Shown piece by piece: positions 2,036 to 15,003 of a DNA stretch of 21,083 bases. The stretch is from IMG/VR virus record IMGVR_UViG_3300020452_000255, positions 1 through 21,083 of that record. One strand, 5' to 3'. Made by a program: the position numbers and the translations under genes. The stretch is from a virus. The notes under the pieces are model-generated. The model had not been told where the DNA came from, searched no databases, and was given only the letters and a program-made list of their open reading frames with translations. Numbering within the stretch: position 1 is the stretch's first letter; the number at the start of each line of letters is the position of its first letter.

Positions 2036-2154
2036 TTACCTTGACCTCTACTTAGCTTGCGATTACCTTTTGGTTTAGATAATTTACTTTGACCTTGGGT
2101 TGTTTTTTTCTTAGTAGATTTAATCTCCTGTTCGTTTTTCTTTGAGTAAAGCAT
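2032..2154 (-). CDS. 40-residue lysine-rich peptide between DNA polymerase and exonuclease
   Basis: A small reading frame bounded by tight overlaps on both sides: its ATG shares bases with the TAA of the polymerase gene (TAATG) and its TGA overlaps the ATG of the exonuclease. It starts MLYSKKNEQEIKS and ends KLSRGQGK. It is very rich in Lys and Arg with many Gln, Ser and Gly and no hydrophobic core, as expected of a disordered nucleic-acid-binding peptide or an accessory peptide of the replication complex. No family is recognised. The double overlap is the main evidence that it is translated. Confidence 0.62.
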   Translation of the reverse strand: MLYSKKNEQEIKSTKKKTTQGQSKLSKPKGNRKLSRGQGK

Positions 2155-3425
2155 TAGTGGGTTTGGCTCCAGTTGGTTCCTGTAGTTGCGTCGGCGTCAA
2201 TTCGACACCTGATGTTGTAGTATTCACCAGCTTCTGTACTGCTAAGTACCAAGGATGAACATAAGTCTGTGGCGTGTTCGGGAGAACACTCGAATTGTAA
2301 TTCGTCATGAACAAATGCTAGTTGTGAACAGCATAGTTTTAGTTGTTTAATATTATGTTGGTTAATAATCATCCAACGTTTAGCCAAGATTGCAGAATTA
2401 CCTTGCAAGCAATAATTCAACGCTTTATGCGGTGAATCCACGATAATTTTTCGGTCATCGATAGCTTTGAGGTATCCACGTTCTGAAGCTTTCTTAATTG
2501 CATCCAGGAGATCACCGAGTCCTTCAATTGCATCAACATATGCTTCTCTGATCTCTTGTCCTTTTTTCTTTGCTGCCGAGGATGAAAGAAGTTTGTCATA
2601 GCTGTGTCCAATTTTTTCATTGCCCGCCCCATATAGCATGGCGTAGGTTACCGTCTTTACTTGTTTTCGACTGATACCTATCTTATCAGCATTGACTTGA
2701 TGGATGTCACCATTTAGTAGGATGTCAGCATAACGTCCGTCATCATACCTGGCGAGGAAATGCGAAAGCATTCTGAGTTCGATCCCTGCCAAATCAGCCC
2801 CAACCATTACTAAACCAGGGCTGGCAGTAAATAGCTGCCTAAATCTAGAATCACTTGGAACTTGAGATAAGTTGGGGTTACGATGAGCTTGACGAAATGT
2901 TGCAGTAGCTACTGAACAATGGTGATGTATTCGACTAGCATTCGTAGATAGCTTGAGCCATGCGTTCGCGCCTTCGGAGATCATCCCAAGCATTTTCGTT
3001 ACCGTCAAACATCTCGCAAACTGCATAGCAATCGGAGATCCAATCTCGGTCAGAATAACTTCGTCGATAACTGGTTTCCCAGTAGTTGTCTTCTGAGTTG
3101 GAATCCAACCACAGAATGTTTGCAATATCCATGAGATGTGATCGCGTGATGTTGGATTTAATTCTTTTAAGCGTGTGAATGGAGCGTCTTTGACATAGCC
3201 TTGGGTCCGATTATTTCTCTTAGGAGTAAATATTGATCCTGCAACGTAAGGGTGCCTGTCACGTAGTAATTGATAAGTTTGCTCAAGCTCTCGTCTGAGA
3301 GTAGATGCAAGTTCCCATGCAGAGCGTTCATCAAAATACCATCCATGTAGTTCCTGTTTTGTAAGGATTTCGGCAGACTCATGTTCTAATTTAATCCATT
3401 CAGGTATGGTTGAAAATGTTTCCAA
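2154..3425 (-). CDS. DNA polymerase A, polymerase domain (second part of a split T7 gp5-like enzyme)
   Basis: 423 residues carrying the whole family A polymerase fold and no proofreading domain. Motif A is VGADLAGIELR with D211, motif B is KQVKTVTYAMLYGAG with K257 and Tyr at 261 (the position of T7 Tyr526, which governs ddNTP discrimination), and motif C is FVHDELQ with H373, D374 and E375. The N-terminal FSTIPEWIKLEHESAEILTKQELHGW corresponds to the linker after the exonuclease domain in T7 gp5. The only possible start near the exonuclease end is a TTG at 3423-3425, without a ribosome binding site. An in-frame TAA lies just upstream, and the first internal Met is far inside the domain. Expression is therefore either from TTG by coupling or by a -1 frameshift from the exonuclease frame, which overlaps it by 40 bases. 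Confidence 0.93.
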   Translation of the reverse strand: METFSTIPEWIKLEHESAEILTKQELHGWYFDERSAWELASTLRRELEQTYQLLRDRHPYVAGSIFTPKRNNRTQGYVKDAPFTRLKELNPTSRDHISWILQTFCGWIPTQKTTTGKPVIDEVILTEIGSPIAMQFARCLTVTKMLGMISEGANAWLKLSTNASRIHHHCSVATATFRQAHRNPNLSQVPSDSRFRQLFTASPGLVMVGADLAGIELRMLSHFLARYDDGRYADILLNGDIHQVNADKIGISRKQVKTVTYAMLYGAGNEKIGHSYDKLLSSSAAKKKGQEIREAYVDAIEGLGDLLDAIKKASERGYLKAIDDRKIIVDSPHKALNYCLQGNSAILAKRWMIINQHNIKQLKLCCSQLAFVHDELQFECSPEHATDLCSSLVLSSTEAGEYYNIRCRIDADATTGTNWSQTH

Positions 3426-3925
3426 AGTTTGTTAGTAACAACAACGTCTTGTATCATGTAATCTTGCATTTCTTGTGACCATTCCTTCCAATCTGTATCT
3501 TTTCCAAATGTACCTTTATTTTCATCTAGACGATAACCATAAGCTTCAAGTGAATGTCTACCATATAATTTTAAAGGCATATTTTTCCAGACACGTTTTT
3601 TATCTATGTCTAGTAAGTTTGGATGATACAAACGACTGAGCAAAAGAGTATCCAAGCAATCACCAATACGTCTAAACCATGGGTATAATTTATTAATGAT
3701 AGCAAGATCGTACCCAATAATGTTATGACCAACAATACACTCAGCGTCTTCCAGATACTGAATACCTCTAATAATCGGTTCAGCAGCTTGTTTATCTGTT
3801 GCATGTTTAAAAGCTTGATCATTATAAACCATTGTTTGATCAGTTTCTGTATCATAAATACAAAGACAGTGGATCTTGGTAACATCACAGAGTAATCCGT
3901 CAGTTTCTAAATCAAAGATGAGCAT
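3386..3925 (-). CDS. DNA polymerase 3'-5' exonuclease domain (first part of the split polymerase)
   Basis: 179 residues corresponding to the N-terminal proofreading domain of T7 gp5. Exo I is FDLETDG with D5 and E7, Exo II is GHNIIGYD with D73, and Exo III is YMIQDVVVT with Y156 and D160, so the active site is complete. The frame stops at a TAG right after the helix that would lead into the polymerase domain, and the polymerase frame is offset by -1. Together the two frames would give about 590-600 residues, a size I would expect for a single cyanophage polymerase, and nothing is lost at the join. Its ATG shares bases with the stop of the upstream 51-residue gene (TAATG). Confidence 0.9.
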   Translation of the reverse strand: MLIFDLETDGLLCDVTKIHCLCIYDTETDQTMVYNDQAFKHATDKQAAEPIIRGIQYLEDAECIVGHNIIGYDLAIINKLYPWFRRIGDCLDTLLLSRLYHPNLLDIDKKRVWKNMPLKLYGRHSLEAYGYRLDENKGTFGKDTDWKEWSQEMQDYMIQDVVVTNKLWKHFQPYLNGLN

Positions 3926-5921: not shown

Positions 5922-6490
5922 CAGAAATCGTCCTCTTCTTCCACGTCCTTGCTAGGTGTGATATTAGGTTCAGAAGCTTTAAAACCTTCAGTAGTACCAA
6001 ACATAGCTACTACATCTTCTGTACTCATGTCACCTGTGTCTACACCAGCTCCGTTATTAAGAGACACCAGTTGTACACCAACCAGTTTAAGACTCGTGCC
6101 ATAAGTGACTCCATCACGAAGGATATATGGTTTCTGATAGAATGCCAACTTGACACGACTACCAGCATACATAGGTGTAGCTTCATCTGTAATCTGTACG
6201 CCTTGCGTATCGACAACAGGTGGACGGTTCTCTTCGTTCCAACTGAACTTGACTTTGTATTGCCCATCAGCTACTTCTTCCCATGGTTCAGGCTTTAGTG
6301 TTGAACGCTTAGGGTTCTTTAGTTTACCTTCTGCCCACTTGAGTGACTCAACACGGTCATCTTCAAGGGTATCAGCCATTGACTGATCGACAATAGCAGC
6401 TAGTGAATAACCAAACTTACTTGGTTTCAATACAGCTTGGTAGCCTTCCAGGACTACAGGCTGTTCGGTTTTGTGGATGTTGCGTGGCAT
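5921..6490 (-). CDS. gp2.5-like single-stranded DNA-binding protein
   Basis: 189 residues. Coats single-stranded DNA and coordinates polymerase and helicase. The identity rests on place (between RNA polymerase and endonuclease I, as in T7), on the beta-rich central region with conserved YKVKFSWNEENRPPVVD and GTSLKLVGVQLVSL segments, and on the very acidic C-terminus that ends VEEEDDF. In gp2.5 such an acidic tail with a terminal Phe docks onto the polymerase and helicase. The start shares bases with the polymerase stop (TAATG). Confidence 0.85.
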   Translation of the reverse strand: MPRNIHKTEQPVVLEGYQAVLKPSKFGYSLAAIVDQSMADTLEDDRVESLKWAEGKLKNPKRSTLKPEPWEEVADGQYKVKFSWNEENRPPVVDTQGVQITDEATPMYAGSRVKLAFYQKPYILRDGVTYGTSLKLVGVQLVSLNNGAGVDTGDMSTEDVVAMFGTTEGFKASEPNITPSKDVEEEDDF

Positions 6491-8835
6491 TAACAGAAAA
6501 AATAAGTGGATTCAATCACGGATTCTGGTTCCAGATCTCCAATGATCGGTGGATTAGTCTCTGCTTCTATTTGAGTAGCAAAGTCTTGTAAATAATTATG
6601 CTCTGCAAATAAATGCATGTATGTTTCTCGTACTACGGAACTTAATAATTCCATGTCTGTAGCACGACACAATACAGAGTCATGTATAAGAGCAATCGGT
6701 GCATAAAAAGCTAATGCACTAAAATGTAAAAGCGAGGCGTCAAGTGAATGAATAAGATTAGGTGCTGTTGCGTTCTTGTGGTGTTGTTTATCTACCTTGT
6801 CACCATCTTCAGTAGCAACAGTAAGTTTACAACGACCAAGCAATTGTAGCTCAACCTGAATAGTTTTAGGTTTCATTAGACGTTGGTTAACAACAAAACC
6901 AGATGGTGTTACCCATTTTAGTTCTGTTTTACCTTTATCAATAGCTTTAGATACTTCATTTTCAATCCATGACATAACAGCCATAGGACCAGGAACAACA
7001 GTATCCATTGCATCCCTAACAGCAACAACAGTTTTAGTTAGATCGTCTTTATCAATCTCAACACCTTTCTCTTTTAATGCATCTCTAATGTACCCACGGT
7101 TGCTGAAAGGTTTGGCATTGTAGGGTACCGTCATGACTACCCTTTTGACTACCTTTCTATCCATATGATTACGGATAGAATTAGGGCAGAAAGGAGCAGC
7201 AGTATTAGCAACGACAGCATAAGCATCTTGTGGTTTATCAGAAGGAATAACATTTACTAGACTAGCAGTAGATTTATCTCTAGCTAATCCAGCTAGTATT
7301 TGTAACCCACTACATGTAGCATCAGTAGCAACTATTCCACCTGTTGTTGTTCTATCTTTAATCAAGACACAATGATAATATTCATCACATGCTGCTAAAA
7401 ACTGCCAAGGTTCTGCAGCAGCTTCCCATTCGTGAATGTATTGAATTGGATCACATGCGACCATAGAAATAATATGAGTATTATTTATTACCCAATTTAA
7501 TCTATCTTCAATAGTATCCTTATCACGACCATAAGTAGTAGCAACTTGAAAGGCTAACCATTTCTCAGCATACTTATTCATCTTTGCTTCTTTAGCAAAT
7601 CGAAGTAGACTTTTTCCAAAGTCAGTATCTTGTGGTGTTAAGTGTGATGGAATAGGATAAGCTCTCCCTCTATAATCAAAACTCCATGGTAAATAAAATT
7701 TATCTTTATCTTTAAATCTTGCTACTGCTTCCATTGTCATTCGAGTTCTACAAGACTTTCTAAACTCTTGAGCTTGTAAATCATGAACTACTTTAGCTCT
7801 TCGTTTATAATCTTGTCTTGACTCTTTATTAACATCAATATCTATTGGTTTAGATGGTAGATCATGATGCATAATAGGGAGAAACTTACCGATTGCTCGT
7901 TCCATTCTATCTAGTTCTTCCGCTACCTTTACTGTAAAAGGATTTAAACGGTAAGCCACCTTCTGAATTTTGTTTAAAAATTCGATTGGTGTTTCTCCCT
8001 GTATAGATGTGGGGTTACCACGCCTTACTAAATTATGACCTGCCATGATCTCATTTAGGAAATAACCACCACATGATTCATTGCTCCAATCTCTTGGAGG
8101 TATAAGCATAGGCCATGCAACAGGACTAAATAATTCAGCATTTTTCATAATCTCATCTTTTTTCTCCATAAATTCTGGAGTAGGGACAATATGTTGAATT
8201 TTCTTTCGTCCTTGCTGATGTATGTGTTTAGTAAACCAACCACTAGTCTCCATAATGCAGTCTAGTAACCAACCACCAAGTTGAACACGATTTTTACTAC
8301 CCCATGTCTGCCAAGGCGTAACATCATACCTGTTCATTAATGTTCTGATGTTAACTAGTTTCTGTTGTGTACCAGAAGAACTGTGCCAATAACGTTCTTT
8401 TAGTTTATACAGTAACCCAGGTGCTGTCTTTTCATAATGCCTCATCTGGCACTCCTGTTCAACAGCTAGTCCAATAGCTTCACAAACGCCTACAGTGACG
8501 TTTGATTTGTCTTTATGACTAAATACCTTATCAAAGCATACCTTAAGTGCTATAGCAGCAGCAGCGAGTGGCTCAACATCAGCAAGATACTGTTGTATCT
8601 CCTTAAATGATTTACCCGCTTGTCCTTTCTTTAATCTAGCGGTAGTATCTTCAATACGTGCCACCAACAAAGGAAGCAGGGTATCAATAGAAGCAGCTCC
8701 GTAAACACTAGCAGACGCATAAGATTTGTTTTCTAAATCTCGGGTGTTCTTATGTAGTTTTTTTAGACCATGTGCAATAGCATCACGTTCTAATTGAATT
8801 TGTTCGTCTAACTCTTGTTCAGTCGGAATCAGCAA
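6490..8835 (-). CDS. T7-like single-subunit DNA-directed RNA polymerase
   Basis: 781 residues. Transcribes the middle and late phage genes from phage-specific promoters. Catalytic motifs: VATDATCSGLQ with D505 (T7 D537), KRVVMTVPYNAK with K564 and Y572 (the same eight-residue spacing as T7 K631 and Y639), and LIHDSVL with D719 (T7 D812). An N-terminal TLLPLLVARIED region matches T7 around residue 70. The C-terminus is STYFFC, ending in hydrophobic residues as T7 does (FAFA). It is about 100 residues shorter than T7 gp1, mostly at the N-terminus. The start is TTG at 8833-8835, directly after an in-frame TGA, with AGGAG nine bases upstream; there is no ATG alternative near the N-terminus. Confidence 0.97.
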   Translation of the reverse strand: MLIPTEQELDEQIQLERDAIAHGLKKLHKNTRDLENKSYASASVYGAASIDTLLPLLVARIEDTTARLKKGQAGKSFKEIQQYLADVEPLAAAAIALKVCFDKVFSHKDKSNVTVGVCEAIGLAVEQECQMRHYEKTAPGLLYKLKERYWHSSSGTQQKLVNIRTLMNRYDVTPWQTWGSKNRVQLGGWLLDCIMETSGWFTKHIHQQGRKKIQHIVPTPEFMEKKDEIMKNAELFSPVAWPMLIPPRDWSNESCGGYFLNEIMAGHNLVRRGNPTSIQGETPIEFLNKIQKVAYRLNPFTVKVAEELDRMERAIGKFLPIMHHDLPSKPIDIDVNKESRQDYKRRAKVVHDLQAQEFRKSCRTRMTMEAVARFKDKDKFYLPWSFDYRGRAYPIPSHLTPQDTDFGKSLLRFAKEAKMNKYAEKWLAFQVATTYGRDKDTIEDRLNWVINNTHIISMVACDPIQYIHEWEAAAEPWQFLAACDEYYHCVLIKDRTTTGGIVATDATCSGLQILAGLARDKSTASLVNVIPSDKPQDAYAVVANTAAPFCPNSIRNHMDRKVVKRVVMTVPYNAKPFSNRGYIRDALKEKGVEIDKDDLTKTVVAVRDAMDTVVPGPMAVMSWIENEVSKAIDKGKTELKWVTPSGFVVNQRLMKPKTIQVELQLLGRCKLTVATEDGDKVDKQHHKNATAPNLIHSLDASLLHFSALAFYAPIALIHDSVLCRATDMELLSSVVRETYMHLFAEHNYLQDFATQIEAETNPPIIGDLEPESVIESTYFFC
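7993..8017 (-). promoter_or_regulatory. Candidate T7-like phage promoter inside the RNA polymerase gene
   Basis: On the minus strand TAACCCCACATCTATA is followed by CAGGGAGAA. The same 16 bases occur just downstream of terL (13261-13276), followed there by GGCAGAAGGG. The form resembles T7-family promoters (T7 TAATACGACTCACTATAGGGAGA, T3 ATTAACCCTCACTAAAGGGAGA): a TAA-C start, a CTATA-like melting region and a GGGAGA-like initiation region. It would transcribe the 3' two thirds of the polymerase gene and the replication genes, like class II promoters in T7. This is inference from two copies only. Confidence 0.45.
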
Positions 8836-9518: not shown

Positions 9519-9561
9519 AAAAAACTGCGTCCTTGCTGGTGTGAATGTGTTGAATGTGATT

Positions 9562-9599
9562 GACAAAAATACCGCCGCTAAATATAATAATAGCGACGG
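9562..9599 (-). terminator. Intrinsic terminator at the end of the early region
   Basis: On the minus strand CCGTCGCTA pairs with TAGCGGCGG (nine pairs including one G-U) around a ten-base AT loop, followed directly by TATTTTTGTC. This is the clearest rho-independent terminator in the window. It lies after the ArdA-like gene and ahead of the small genes before RNA polymerase, and would limit or stop host polymerase transcription of the early operon. Confidence 0.8.
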
Positions 9600-9609
9600 A
9601 TTGTGATTA

Positions 9610-9672
9610 GATTGTAATAAAAATTACAAATTAATTAAATTTGATTGTAATAAGAATTACAAATTAATTAAA
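9610..9672. repeat. Two tandem 30-bp copies, each containing an AT-rich dyad
   Basis: Copies at 9610-9639 and 9643-9672 differ at one base (period 33). Each contains the inverted repeat TTGTAAT-N4-ATTACAA (N4 is AAAA or AAGA). The second copy reaches into the last bases of the ArdA-like gene. Tandem dyads spaced about three helical turns apart look like a two-site operator; the strongly AT-rich setting just before the polymerase genes is also where a T7-type primary replication origin might be. It may also simply shape the mRNA 3' end before the terminator. Confidence 0.7.
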
Positions 9673-10003
9673 AGTTTTGATTAAAGAAATAATATTCAGA
9701 ATCAAAATACACAGAAAAGAAATCGTATTTTAATGTTTGATGCCACACTAATTCCCAATCAATGGCATACTGTACCCAAGTAGGTAATGCATCCATCTCA
9801 GAAGAATAGGTATCACTCATCAAATCTTCACAGAATGTTGCCTCGTCACGATAACAACCAGCATACGCATCTTCGAGTTGTTCGATGTCAGTGATACCGT
9901 ACGATGTCAACTCCTCCATGAATTGCTCAATGTCAGTAACTGACTCAGAGTCAATAACTTTGGAGATGGCTTCTTCGTAGCGTGAAAGAGTTGGTGCAAT
10001 CAT
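9668..10003 (-). CDS. ArdA-like antirestriction protein (short form)
   Basis: 111 residues from the ATG at 10003 (a longer frame to 10036 would start with TTG). ArdA proteins mimic DNA and inhibit type I restriction enzymes. The core LEDAYAGCYRDEATFCEDL, then LPTWVQYAIDWELVWHQTL and FFSVYFDSEYYFF, matches the C-terminal half of ArdA (the AYxGxY, E-D-F, P, Y-x-D-x-E and F-F-x-x-x patterns), and the protein is strongly acidic. Known ArdA proteins are about 165-180 residues, so the N-terminal domain is missing or replaced by a short helix. It is the last gene before the early terminator, playing the part that Ocr (gp0.3) plays in T7. Confidence 0.72.
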   Translation of the reverse strand: MIAPTLSRYEEAISKVIDSESVTDIEQFMEELTSYGITDIEQLEDAYAGCYRDEATFCEDLMSDTYSSEMDALPTWVQYAIDWELVWHQTLKYDFFSVYFDSEYYFFNQNF

Positions 10004-10045
10004 AGTTGTGTGAATGTGTTGTTTGATGAGTGACAAGTTAGTTAA

Positions 10046-10356: not shown

Positions 10357-10569
10357 TCAACTATGGTTAGCGATGAACTCGTCGAGAGTGTAACCGTCGT
10401 CGGTGTCAGTGTCAGCAACTAGCTGATCATAAGACAATACATCTAACGAAGCACGATAGTCAGCAGGTGACATGTCAACGTCAGGATCGAAGTCGTCATG
10501 GCAAAGATAGTCATACTCATGACACAATGCGTCGATGAGTTGTACACGTGTGTATGTGATACTAGACAT
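10357..10569 (-). CDS. 70-residue highly acidic early protein
   Basis: Start taken at the ATG at 10569 (MSSITYTRVQLIDAL); a longer frame begins with TTG. Asp is extremely frequent (HDDFDPDVD, VADTDTDDGYTLDEF) with only two Arg and no Lys, so the predicted pI is very low. A protein this acidic and this small in an early phage region could be a nucleic acid mimic, but no family is recognised. It overlaps neither neighbour and ends 10 bases before the tetraloop hairpin. Confidence 0.65.
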   Translation of the reverse strand: MSSITYTRVQLIDALCHEYDYLCHDDFDPDVDMSPADYRASLDVLSYDQLVADTDTDDGYTLDEFIANHS

Positions 10570-10571
10570 AA

Positions 10572-10862
10572 TCAAGCAGCAGATTGAAGAGTGAGAGGAT
10601 TAGCATCGAAGTTGTCTGCACACTTACTATCATAAGCTAGACAATACTTGTTAACCCACGAACCGAGACTGATTGTATCTTCTAACAATAGTTTAAGGAT
10701 AGCACGACGACTAACATTGTTGTAAGCATAACGCTTAACACTCTTGTTAGTGTTCTTGTAGTACACAGTACACCAACCACACCAAGGATTAACAATGATG
10801 TAATCAATGAAGGATGAAGAACGAATGATAACAAACGCTTTGTTGAGTGGATTAGAAAGCAT
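10572..10862 (-). CDS. KTSC-like early protein, paralogue of the downstream 79-residue gene
   Basis: 96 residues from the ATG at 10862 (MLSNPLNKAFVIIRSSSF); the longer frame to 10916 begins with TTG and covers a promoter, so I reject it. RSSSFIDYIIVN, a central VYYKNTNKSVKRYAYNNVS and LGSWVNKYCL parallel SSAIKNLEVN, NNRQYLYSNVS and FGKWVNEYCL of the 79-residue protein. This is an old duplication. The gene is led by the promoter at 10888-10916. Function unknown. Confidence 0.68.
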   Translation of the reverse strand: MLSNPLNKAFVIIRSSSFIDYIIVNPWCGWCTVYYKNTNKSVKRYAYNNVSRRAILKLLLEDTISLGSWVNKYCLAYDSKCADNFDANPLTLQSAA

Positions 10863-10887: not shown

Positions 10888-10916
10888 AGTATGGCAGAGA
10901 ATGGAGTGAAAGTCAA
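10888..10916 (-). promoter_or_regulatory. Early host-type promoter 1 (TTGACT-17-CATACT)
   Basis: Minus strand: -35 TTGACT at 10916-10911, 17-base spacer, -10 CATACT at 10893-10888 preceded by TGC (extended -10). It is one of three copies with the same -35, spacing and TGCCATACT. The likely start site is about 19 bases before the ATG at 10862. The -35 overlaps the stop of the 57-residue gene. Confidence 0.82.
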
Positions 10917-11086
10917 GCGGTAGTAGACAGTTCCTCACGTGTCATGTGGTATTGGTAGTTACCATTAGACATACGCGCACGTTGTAGCGCACGCTCTGCA
11001 TCATACTGTGCAGTGTAGTAATCGAAATCTTTGGATACACCGTTAGCGGTGCGAGTTAAGACGAAACGGAATGGTTGTTTGTTCAT
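10913..11086 (-). CDS. 57-residue early hypothetical protein
   Basis: ATG at 11086 (MNKQPFRFVLTRTANGVS); the longer frame to 11143 starts with TTG and would span a promoter. It looks like a small alpha/beta protein: a strand RFVLTRTANG, then helix TAQYDAERALQRARM, ending in a Thr/Arg/Glu patch. The start codon is about where transcription from promoter 2 would begin (the -10 ends seven bases before), so the message could be leaderless. No family recognised. Confidence 0.6.
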   Translation of the reverse strand: MNKQPFRFVLTRTANGVSKDFDYYTAQYDAERALQRARMSNGNYQYHMTREELSTTA

Positions 11087-11092
11087 GCTTAC

Positions 11093-11121
11093 AGTATGGC
11101 ATAGAATCGGTGGGAAGTCAA
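11093..11121 (-). promoter_or_regulatory. Early host-type promoter 2 (TTGACT-17-CATACT)
   Basis: Minus strand: -35 TTGACT at 11121-11116, 17-base spacer, -10 CATACT at 11098-11093 with TGC before it. It shares TTGACTT at one end and ATGCCATACT-like sequence at the other with the two other copies. The predicted start site coincides with the ATG at 11086. Confidence 0.82.
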
Positions 11122-11124
11122 CGG

Positions 11125-11280
11125 TTAGTGTGCACTTTGCCAACTGTCACACTCTCCAGTAATACCATCTAAGTAATCTGCAATCATATAAAACCACATG
11201 TCATTTTCATAGCAATCATTCATACCACTGTACCACATAACATCAACAGTTTCATCGATTTGTTGTTGCTTAGAGTTCAT
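11125..11280 (-). CDS. 51-residue acidic early peptide
   Basis: Starts MNSKQQQIDETVDVMWYSG; a good ribosome binding site GAGG sits six to seven bases upstream. Ten acidic residues against one Lys; several Trp, Tyr and Met. The start overlaps the end of the preceding 50-residue gene by 11 bases. No family is recognised. The ribosome binding site and coupling support translation. Confidence 0.6.
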   Translation of the reverse strand: MNSKQQQIDETVDVMWYSGMNDCYENDMWFYMIADYLDGITGECDSWQSAH

Positions 11281-11422
11281 GAAATACCTCGATTGTGTTA
11301 GTTACAATAATACCATTTAGTTTTGCTGGTTTGTTTCGTTTAGCACGCTTCTGTACATCACACCATAATAGTGTACGCATTGGTTTATCGTGAAGTGTGA
11401 ATGTGGTTTCTTTTAATCTCAT
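11270..11422 (-). CDS. 50-residue basic early peptide
   Basis: Starts MRLKETTFTLHDKPMRTLLW and continues with KRAKRNKPAKLNG. Its ATG follows the TAA of the 80-residue gene with no gap (TAAATG), and its end overlaps the acidic 51-residue gene. The predicted fold is strand-rich with a basic middle. No known family; translation is plausible from coupling. Confidence 0.58.
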   Translation of the reverse strand: MRLKETTFTLHDKPMRTLLWCDVQKRAKRNKPAKLNGIIVTNTIEVFHEL

Positions 11423-11665
11423 TTAGTTAAAAATAAATGTTGAACAATCACATGCTAATACACCATAGTTTGCTAAGTCATGATACTTTTCAAAACGATT
11501 ATCATCCTTTATTTCATAACAAAACAAACCCTCATCATCTAAATCAGATAAGAATTGATCGATGATTTTATTGTACTCAATATCATTAATGTAATCTAAA
11601 AAACTCCAGTCATTATTAATCAAACCGCTGGCAAGTTCAGTTGGTAGTGTGTACTCTGTTTTCAT
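11423..11665 (-). CDS. 80-residue acidic early protein
   Basis: Starts MKTEYTLPTELASGLINND, with AGGAGAT six bases upstream of the ATG as a strong ribosome binding site. LPxxLASxLIN near the start and FEKYHDLANYGVLACDCSTFIF at the end look like a small protein family found in phages and mobile DNA, where a D-rich linker joins two conserved ends; I know no function. It follows the 106-residue gene by 14 bases and shares promoter 3. Confidence 0.68.
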   Translation of the reverse strand: MKTEYTLPTELASGLINNDWSFLDYINDIEYNKIIDQFLSDLDDEGLFCYEIKDDNRFEKYHDLANYGVLACDCSTFIFN

Positions 11666-11679
11666 TTTGTTATCTCCTA

Positions 11680-12000
11680 TTACTTGAACACATATCCTGA
11701 CTCAAACTCAACAACCTCGTTGTTATCTTTGATAAACCATTGATAATCTTTCTGAAATACACCATCAGTTAATGCATCACAGAATTCATTGATGATAACA
11801 TTGAGACGAGATTTAGTCGTGTTAGTACGCCATCCACCATCAAATACTCTGACGTTGTTATCAGTCACTGTCGCAATGTGATTGCCGTGAAGATACACAA
11901 GTGATGCATTGTTGTCGTTAGTGTATACCTCAGTATTTGCCTTATGCCAACACTTTCCCAACTTGATTGCACTGATCATGTCACGTTCAATCTGTCGCAT
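11680..12000 (-). CDS. First early gene: conserved phage protein of 106 residues
   Basis: ATG at 12000 (MRQIERDMISAIKLGKCW) with GGAGAG seven bases upstream; a longer frame to 12084 would cross the promoter and is rejected. The sequence pattern NTEVYTN, VYLHGNHIATV, FDGGWRTNTTKSRLN and GVFQKDYQWFI is one I recognise as recurring in small proteins near the start of phage genomes, without known function. It is the promoter-proximal gene of the early region and should be among the first expressed. Confidence 0.72.
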   Translation of the reverse strand: MRQIERDMISAIKLGKCWHKANTEVYTNDNNASLVYLHGNHIATVTDNNVRVFDGGWRTNTTKSRLNVIINEFCDALTDGVFQKDYQWFIKDNNEVVEFESGYVFK

Positions 12001-12024
12001 TGTCTCTCCGTTTGGTATACATAT

Positions 12025-12053
12025 AGTATGGCACAGTGTACAACCAAAGTCAA
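12025..12053 (-). promoter_or_regulatory. Early host-type promoter 3 (TTGACT-17-CATACT)
   Basis: Minus strand: -35 TTGACT at 12053-12048, 17-base spacer, -10 CATACT at 12030-12025 preceded by GTGC. It is the most upstream of the three copies, and the leader to the ATG at 12000 carries a ribosome binding site. It would launch the early region after DNA entry. Confidence 0.84.
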
Positions 12054-12148
12054 TGGGTAGTAGACAGTACGTTAACTGGCGCAACAGATGTTGTGCGATA
12101 TTTACACGTATCCGTGTACCACGTTAAATATTATTTAGCAGCGTCATC

Positions 12149-12226
12149 GCTCGCGCTACGCGCTCGCTAATTGCGCCAAATGTTTGCACATAATGAACAT
12201 TATTGCAGAAGCGAGCGAAGCGAGCG
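12149..12226. repeat. Large interrupted inverted repeat with GC-rich arms
   Basis: The left arm GCTCGC-GCTACGC-GCTCGC (12149-12167) is complementary in its hexamers to the right arm GCGAGC-GAA-GCGAGC (12211-12225). Between them lies a second dyad, TGCA-C-ATAATG-AA-CATTAT-TGCA (12185-12207). The arms are far richer in G+C than the surrounding sequence. The structure could form a cruciform or a strong RNA stem in either direction. Confidence 0.7.
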
Positions 12227-12403
12227 GCAACGATTAGTATATTTTATACCCCTATGGGGGTTTTATAAGTAATACTTATATGATATATGGGTTCACAAAT
12301 TTATGTCATTTTTTAAGGAGCCTTTGCTCGTTAGCGTAAGGTTCCGACATAACAAAAGAGGTATAATCGTTAAAATACTGTGGAAAATAGGACCAAACAG
12401 GTA

Positions 12404-13278: not shown

Positions 13279-15003
13279 CTAAACCCAGGTAGGGATTGAG
13301 TTTCTAGAGTTACCTTTAGCTTGTTGTCTTTGTGTTAAATTCATACCCAATACTAAATGATTAGCAGATGCTTGTGGGTCATCAATAAGCTCTTCTAACA
13401 TAGCATTCCACTCTGTACGTTTACGATCTTTAATAGCTTCTAAGGCAGATATACCCATAGCATCTGTAAAGTATTTAATACCTTGAGAGAGAGCGTCTAA
13501 TCTATCATCATGTCTAATTGCACCTTTTTCACGACACATCCTAGACATTTGATAGAATAACATATAGAGTAGTCGTTCTTCTGGTGCAGCATCTGGATTA
13601 GACTTAAAGTCTTTTTCAATTACGGAACGGTTAATAATGAGTCGATGTTGATTGAGGATGGGTTCGATGGAATCAATGATTCGATCTTCTTTTCTAACAT
13701 TTGCTCTGACTTCTTCAATATCAATTCCTTGTTTTGTTTGTTGAAGATGTTTGCGGAACAACTCGCTAACAATCCCGTCACCAAAATTAGTTTCAATAAG
13801 TAACTTAGATACGCCATACTTTTTACAACCTTTTAAAATATCAAGTAATGTTTGGTCTGAGTATCCATCTCTGTAAGCACGCATTTCGTGCAAGTACAAG
13901 AAACCGTTCCGTTGGGAGATAAAAGCTGCTGCTGTTTCATCCGTTCCACGGCCCGATGGATCAACTGAGCATATTGTTTCTTGGTAAACATCCCATTCTC
14001 CTTGGAGCTGCATTGGAGAGTAGAAATAATCTCCAGGTAAACCAACCGTTGGAAGGTCTTTGATGACGTTTTGGGGATCGGAGCACCATACAACGGATTC
14101 AGGTGCAGTAGTTGGGTTAACGCTAGTAACAATAAGATCAGCACATTTAAGAGGGAATTTTTCTGCATCAGATAAACTTGTGTCTAACATAAATTGCAAC
14201 ATAAAGTTGCTACGACCCATTGATGCTTCACGTTCAATTAAATCATCATTATCAAATCTATCATCTGTTATTTCCCATTTCTTAGCACCTTTATCAATGT
14301 CTTCGACAAGTTGTGGTGCTAGGAGACCTTCGTATTGACTAACTTTACGAGGATATCTAGCAGGCCAAACAAATGGTTTGTAAGAACGTTCTGCTAGTTT
14401 ACGATATACAGTAAATGTAGTCTGTGGTGTTCCGAGAAACATAATACGGCTATCTGATTTAGGAGTGAGAATAGATTCAGCTTCAGTACAAAGTTGTAGA
14501 AGTTTCTCCCTCATAAATTCTGTCATTGAGTTGCCGGGAACCTCAATGTCGTCAAGAATCATTAAGTCAGCGCGAGAACCTGTCAGTTGGCCAGTAATCC
14601 CTACAGACTTGACGGAAGGTGCTTGGTGGGGGGAACAGTTTACATCGAAACTGATTCGTGACCATCTTGAGTCGTCTGATCTGGGCTGTAAATGTTTTAA
14701 CCATGAAGTTTCTATAATTAATTTTTGTAAGAAGATCGACATATTATCTGCACGTTCTTTAGATGCAGAAATAATCATTATCTTTTTTTCGGAGTTATTA
14801 AAGAGAGTCCAAAGAACAAAAGCACCAGTAATCCAGCTCTTACCAACTCCCCGAAATGCTTGGATCTGTAAACGCTTTGGACCGTGTTGAAGGTAATCAG
14901 CAATTGCATATTGGGCACGTGTAGGATTTGGTAGGTCGAGTTCATTCCATAATGCTTGAAGAAAAAGTTTAAAATCACTCTTTAATAGATCTAATGTATT
15001 CAT
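13279..15003 (-). CDS. Terminase large subunit (T7 gp19-like DNA maturase B)
   Basis: 574 residues from the ATG at 15003, which has TGGAG seven bases upstream; the longer frame to 15027 begins with TTG. Packages DNA into proheads. The ATPase domain has Walker A FRGVGKSW at 50-57 and Walker B LMILDDIE near 147-154. The nuclease domain has SVDPSGRGTDE with D348, LLIETNFGDG with E404 and HDDRLDAL at 498-505, the usual acidic ligands. Length is close to T7 gp19 (586). It overlaps the sulfotransferase-like gene by 29 bases. Confidence 0.95.
   Translation of the reverse strand: MNTLDLLKSDFKLFLQALWNELDLPNPTRAQYAIADYLQHGPKRLQIQAFRGVGKSWITGAFVLWTLFNNSEKKIMIISASKERADNMSIFLQKLIIETSWLKHLQPRSDDSRWSRISFDVNCSPHQAPSVKSVGITGQLTGSRADLMILDDIEVPGNSMTEFMREKLLQLCTEAESILTPKSDSRIMFLGTPQTTFTVYRKLAERSYKPFVWPARYPRKVSQYEGLLAPQLVEDIDKGAKKWEITDDRFDNDDLIEREASMGRSNFMLQFMLDTSLSDAEKFPLKCADLIVTSVNPTTAPESVVWCSDPQNVIKDLPTVGLPGDYFYSPMQLQGEWDVYQETICSVDPSGRGTDETAAAFISQRNGFLYLHEMRAYRDGYSDQTLLDILKGCKKYGVSKLLIETNFGDGIVSELFRKHLQQTKQGIDIEEVRANVRKEDRIIDSIEPILNQHRLIINRSVIEKDFKSNPDAAPEERLLYMLFYQMSRMCREKGAIRHDDRLDALSQGIKYFTDAMGISALEAIKDRKRTEWNAMLEELIDDPQASANHLVLGMNLTQRQQAKGNSRNSIPTWV

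Follow-up and report, generated by a model that had tools for sequence, protein, structure and literature searches.

Three near-identical sites upstream of the RNA polymerase gene of a T7-like cyanophage raise the question of which polymerase reads them and where the resulting messages and proteins begin. The sites lie in a stretch of 21,083 nucleotides (positions 1 to 21,083 of IMG/VR record IMGVR_UViG_3300020452_000255), referred to here as the window. In the original prediction, they were described as a family of sigma70-type extended -10 promoters, presumably recognized by the host RNA polymerase. On the evidence as a whole, the sites are likely to be promoters through which the host polymerase with SigA transcribes the early genes of a marine T7-like cyanophage; the middle one would give rise to a leaderless message, and a block upstream of the -35 box is a probable extra contact.

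Genomic setting

The single-subunit T7-like RNA polymerase, identified by homology, is encoded on the minus strand at positions 6490 to 8835, at the downstream end of the early region, and is 76 to 77% identical to the polymerases of Synechococcus phage S-RIP1 and the uncultured Mediterranean phage MedDCM-OCT-S04-C24. Two IMG/VR contigs encode an identical polymerase (100% identity), and the larger of them has a length of 44,613 bases. Following the leftward direction of transcription, the sites were named P1 (12053), P2 (11121), and P3 (10916). The gene order on the minus strand, compiled from the ORF list, family matches, and annotated relatives, is a terminase-like gene, thymidylate synthase, P1, small genes, P2, P3, and small genes, followed by RNA polymerase, SSB, endonuclease, primase-helicase, and DNA polymerase. 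The DNA polymerase is seemingly split into two overlapping minus-strand ORFs (2154 to 3425 and 3386 to 3925), and those of P-SSP7 and S-TIP37 are annotated likewise. The early gene at 9668 to 10036 (minus strand) matches the phage anti-restriction family phrog_36653 (E value of 4.5e-07). Positions 12100 to 12290, between the thymidylate synthase gene and P1, contain palindromic GCGAGCG/CGCTCGC runs and AT-rich DNA and are possibly a physical genome end region.

Three copies of a promoter element

In the whole window, TTGACT-N14-TGCCATACT occurs in three exact copies on the minus strand, all upstream of the polymerase gene. As predicted, exact matches to the pattern TTGACTNNNNNNNNNNNNNNTGCCATACT were located at 12025 to 12053 (P1), 11093 to 11121 (P2), and 10888 to 10916 (P3), and no further match with up to two mismatches was present in the window. 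With up to three mismatches allowed, a single match was added, at 13792 on the plus strand; the average number of such loose matches in dinucleotide shuffles was 0.88. The pattern read backwards had no match in the window. None of 200 dinucleotide shuffles contained a 6+N14+9 word of any sequence at three copies, the maximum being two; the three copies are not due to chance. A blind repeat search returned the three sites as the top repeat family, with a unit of 45 nt versus the 29 nt described originally, and P1 and P3 have 13 additional upstream bases in common. The original prediction also proposed that the whole genome and related phages be scanned for the motif. The near-identical 44,613-base genome contains the same three sites at the same spacing (932 and 205), and they are its sole distinct sites at up to two mismatches, the fourth match being P3 again at the other contig end.

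Each site combines a TTGACT -35 box, a 17-bp spacer, and a CATACT -10 box with an extended -10 TG, and the predicted transcription starts (+1) are about 12018 for P1, 11086 for P2, and about 10881 for P3. The P1 core is conserved in six relatives (L002, L004, L005, L007, L008, and L068), and P3 has GTA where many relatives have an ATG at +1. Predicted folds of the window elements are weak and mutually dissimilar, and a function as RNA hairpins was rejected. Elsewhere in the window, a perfect TTGACA-17-TATAAT lies on the plus strand at 9560 to 9588, antisense to the early genes and adjoining a 33-nt tandem repeat (9606 to 9671); among six relatives checked, it is present in only the two nearest, L001 and L002.

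Conservation among related phages

At least one sense-strand copy with up to three mismatches was found in the early region of all 29 polymerase loci that have at least 3 kb of upstream DNA. The copies are located about 1.7 to 4.2 kb upstream of the phage polymerase gene, and the antisense matches in these relatives are few, with three mismatches each. In eight polymerase-bearing genomes of 41 to 47 kb, the copies precede the polymerase gene, with the exception of one opposite-strand match with two mismatches, and all three strong -35/extended -10 sites in the whole 44.9-kb genome of S-RIP1 lie ahead of that gene. This placement, ahead of the early genes and the polymerase gene and absent from the middle and late regions, is that of phage early promoters. 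A relaxed search returned no match to the motif in P-SSP7, S-CBP1, 7B11-B, and S-TIP37, which indicates that the motif is clade limited.

Because the sites come mostly from related phages, shared ancestry inflates both their conservation and their number, and the weakly conserved spacer and flanks serve as an internal control: among 54 nonredundant sites, TTGAC, TG, -11A, and -7T are at or close to 2 bits, versus 0.2 to 0.6 bits in the spacer center and 0.03 to 0.35 bits well downstream of +1. The TG, -11A, and -7T are invariant (54/54 each), and -12 and -8 vary; the constancy of TG is not forced by the two-mismatch search. The shared TGC from which an extended -10 had been read is part of it, with TG at -15/-14. 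CATACT is frequent and not strict, and its substitutes TATCAT, TATATT, AATACT, CATAAT, and TACACT all respect the sigma70 core. A common origin and a shared requirement had both been offered for CATACT; these -10 variants fit a shared requirement better than recent copying, and common descent clearly contributes. With a -35 box near TTGACA, a spacer of 16 to 18 bp, A2 and T6 in the -10 box, and TG one base upstream, the sites have the sequence features of sigma70/SigA extended -10 promoters. The IMG/VR sequences also include a second subclass of the motif, with GTCAA at +1 (TGCCATACT-ataaga-GTCAAA), which is the reverse complement of its own -35 TTGAC; it is carried by L081, L089, L106, L116, L158, and others.

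A start codon at the predicted transcription start

The sites had been placed just ahead of small gene starts. Genes do follow, beginning 24 nt (right, P1), 6 nt (middle, P2), and 25 nt (left, P3) past the last -10 base, but the prediction missed that in relatives the conserved promoter extends into the gene, with a fixed distance of 6 nt between the -10 box and the ATG, as it also missed the upstream element and the cassette behavior described below. At P2, the ATG (11084 to 11086, minus strand) lies exactly at the predicted +1. With a standard discriminator, its A would be the first transcribed base, and the P2 message should be leaderless. An ATG exactly 6 nt past the -10 box is present in 34 of 67 sites. 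Among IMG/VR contigs with the exact pattern, the ATG is at offset 6 in 81, at offset 7 in 4, and at offset 5 in 3; altered spacers of 16 and 18 bp occur in 7 and 4 contigs, respectively. None of the 111 ATG(+1) sites has a Shine-Dalgarno-like word at -18 to -5. In 25 of them, the 6-nt discriminator contains an in-frame stop, and in-frame translation therefore cannot enter from upstream there. Independent or public gene calls begin exactly at the +1 ATG in S-RIP1 (24003), GU943054 (707 and 925), and S-CREM1 (79042). Judged by this geometry, most copies in the relatives should be leaderless as well.

In the window, only P2 has the leaderless geometry. P1 has no ATG at +1, yet A and T are kept at +1/+2; its putative leader (11998 to 12018) carries a Shine-Dalgarno sequence (CGGAGA) and ends with the start codon at 12000 to 11998. 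P3 also lacks the +1 ATG. Upstream of the P2 ATG, the frame stays open and includes a TTG at 11143. Bacteria are known to have leaderless genes whose -10 box lies about 12 bp ahead of the start codon (PMC3160421), and leaderless mRNA has been documented in cyanobacteria (PMC9938897; PMC6091082). Since many cyanobacterial genes have neither a Shine-Dalgarno sequence nor a recognized leaderless signal (PMC3160421), read-through transcripts might also be translated.

A conserved block upstream of the -35 box

A conserved 14-nt element with the consensus AACTGTCYACYACC is located directly upstream of the -35 box. In the window, it occupies 12056 to 12069 at P1 (CTGTCTACTACC type), 11124 to 11137 at P2 (GTGCACACTAAC type), and 10919 to 10932 at P3 (ACTGTCTACTACC), all on the minus strand. 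The P2 element overlaps the stop of the upstream ORF (11125 to 11280), and no upstream ORF of at least 45 open codons ends near the P1 element. The possibility that the block is a coding by-product was rejected, as it is equally conserved past the stop of the upstream ORF and the ORFs end in different frames. Where the upstream ORF has already stopped, the block has 1.53 bits per column versus 0.60 in the spacer (21 sites), and the values in the P1 class are 1.48 and 0.73 (9 sites). At many P2 and P3 sites, the upstream ORF ends with the TGA within TTGACT, which indicates a packing of genes and promoters that leaves no bases to spare. The block probably adds a further contact, the simplest guess being the alpha subunit of the polymerase, or else another factor.

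Genes behind the promoters

All of the genes that follow the sites are on the minus strand. The first early gene after P1 (11680 to 12000) belongs, by family match, to the Kyanoviridae Gp96 family (PF23790, phrog_554). P2 precedes a 57-amino-acid ORF (10913 to 11086; MNKQPFRFVLTR...), whose stop TGA sits within the P3 -35 box. In this lineage, its differences number 602 at third codon positions versus 144 and 90 at the other two, which indicates that the ORF is a real gene under purifying selection. P3 is now followed by a gene matching phrog_7365 (10572 to 10862) and then by a phrog_734 gene (10357 to 10575), whose likely ATG is at about 10568, directly following the stop codon of the phrog_7365 gene. 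In many relatives, a phrog_734-type gene, to whose product the window protein of 10357 to 10575 is homologous, starts at P3 itself, and P3 of these phages is predicted to drive it leaderlessly.

The small proteins encoded behind the P2 promoter-ATG differ by phage (MNKQPFRFVL, MNKPNKHGVI, MNKTQTIRFN, MKTNNPYVNN, MNKEQLIALA, and others). Compared by eye, they share little past the first residues, and some are alike further in; by this comparison, one and the same promoter-ATG cassette stands ahead of small ORFs that are unrelated between phages. The core with an ATG at +1 also precedes a DUF6267 gene in S-CREM1, a T4-type cyanophage (cyanomyovirus) of the Kyanoviridae, and at about a dozen IMG/VR sites. 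Thirteen matches with an ATG at +1 were found among 84,980 bacterial and archaeal genomes (257 billion bases), about the chance level, and none of the 13 was titled as a cyanobacterium; a host origin of the whole element was rejected on this count. It is possible, if somewhat doubtful, that the two cyanophage families share an early-expression cassette in which host promoter and start codon form one unit (extended -10, six bases, ATG), yielding leaderless messages that avoid the rules of ribosome-binding sites, with the AACTGTCYACYACC block of the T7-like phages read by another factor and small early ORFs exchanged behind the unit. In cyanomyoviruses and related contigs, the promoter core can also be fused to a hairpin resembling an intrinsic terminator, with the -35 box as the loop and the T-run in the spacer (e.g., GGGGTC-TTGACA-GACCCC-TTTTTTT; L251:11966-12001 in S-CREM1, and L116, L128, L131, L149, and L250); this fusion was observed in 15 of 205 sites versus 0.8% expected from shuffled flanks.

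Host or phage polymerase

The near-identical sequences, their strict confinement to one strand, and the presence of a phage polymerase gene would also be expected if the sites were promoters of the phage's own T7-like enzyme. A T7-type promoter is a continuous block, and promoters of such a polymerase would also stand before middle and late genes, but the sites are bipartite with a variable spacer and, in S-RIP1 and the eight genomes (with the one opposite-strand exception), precede the polymerase gene only and not the replication or virion genes. The same core is found in S-CREM1, and the Kyanoviridae are not known to have T7-like polymerases, which favors the host polymerase. Two 44-kb IMG/VR genomes also carry the motif and have no match to the window polymerase. 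A reading by the phage enzyme is accordingly very improbable, and the host sigma70-type polymerase that was originally proposed is supported by the 17-bp spacer, the invariant TG, -11A, and -7T, and the S-CREM1 core. Phage-polymerase promoters were also sought in the intergenic gaps of S-RIP1 with 16-mers and three mismatches; the sole result was a weak word of the ACACATTCACA type within the early region, and no class II/III motif was established.

If the sites were repeats maintained for the sake of recombination or duplication, as cassette borders whose likeness to promoters is secondary, this would account for the different small ORFs behind the same element and for the 13 further upstream bases shared by P1 and P3. 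Conservation is concentrated at the sigma70 contacts and at +1/+2 while the spacer drifts, a pattern that plain repeats would not keep, nor would they keep a fixed 17-bp spacing, and we regard this explanation as very unlikely; it is partly compatible with conserved promoters, of which cassette exchange can be a by-product. If the sites are host promoters, the ATG at +1 could still be a coincidence, with the real start further upstream and short leaders on the messages, as the start position follows from geometry only and P1 and the window P3 have leaders. Against this, the ATG is found at offset 6 about 20 times as often as at offset 5 or 7, and offset 6 holds across several unrelated ORFs and across cyanomyovirus-type contigs with different upstream DNA. 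Moreover, the -10 hexamer occupies the Shine-Dalgarno position, so any leader must contain the -10 region. A coincidental ATG is therefore unlikely.

Under the preferred reading of host-SigA early promoters, the host RNA polymerase, carrying SigA as its main sigma factor, would read the sites leftward before the phage polymerase is made, with SigA contacting the TTGACT -35 box, the extended -10 TG, and the CATACT -10 box and the AACTGTCYACYACC block perhaps offering an additional contact to the alpha subunit or another factor. Transcription would start 7 bases after the -10 box, on an A. At P2, this A would be the first base of the ATG, and the leaderless message would be translated without a Shine-Dalgarno sequence; the P1 message would start on AUA and carry a Shine-Dalgarno leader. 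P3 would have the leaderless form in many relatives but not in the window lineage, where the phrog_7365 gene is now first.

Comparison with known systems

The element provides a consensus for host-dependent early transcription that is precise and can be tested, in a group of largely uncultured marine cyanophages whose early promoters have been little characterized. By its prediction, early phage genes would be systematically translated without leaders in cyanobacteria, many of whose genes already have no Shine-Dalgarno sequence. Looking six bases past TGCCATACT could also serve to locate true start codons and candidate take-over genes. In the open-licence literature, no paper combining leaderless mRNA with phage early promoters was found, and cyanobacteria were not among the groups with detected leaderless genes in a genome survey (PMC3160421).

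Like the T7 A1 to A3 and T4 early promoters, the sites are strong tandem host-polymerase promoters, by this reading, ahead of the polymerase and early genes, with a -35 box, a 17-bp spacer, and a -10 box; unlike them, they have an extended -10, CATACT as the commonest -10 box, a conserved upstream block, and, in most members, a start codon at the predicted +1. In cyanomyovirus Ma-LMM01, early genes are likewise preceded by a cyanobacterial SigA-type sequence, 6 to 8 bp upstream of the start (PMC5780444). The Ma-LMM01 motifs are general consensus matches obtained with BPROM and RNA-seq, whereas the element described here is near invariant in dozens of T7-like cyanophages, with the ATG fixed at the predicted +1. 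In leaderless genes whose -10 box lies about 12 bp upstream (PMC3160421), lambda cI, and Anabaena cvkR/cas12k (PMC9938897), the start codon is at the transcription start, as predicted here, and no Shine-Dalgarno sequence is present. Those cases concern genes of the host, or else individual regulators or effectors, whereas here a promoter-ATG cassette recurs ahead of early phage ORFs. Each ingredient is known; their fixed combination in phage early promoters appears to be new.
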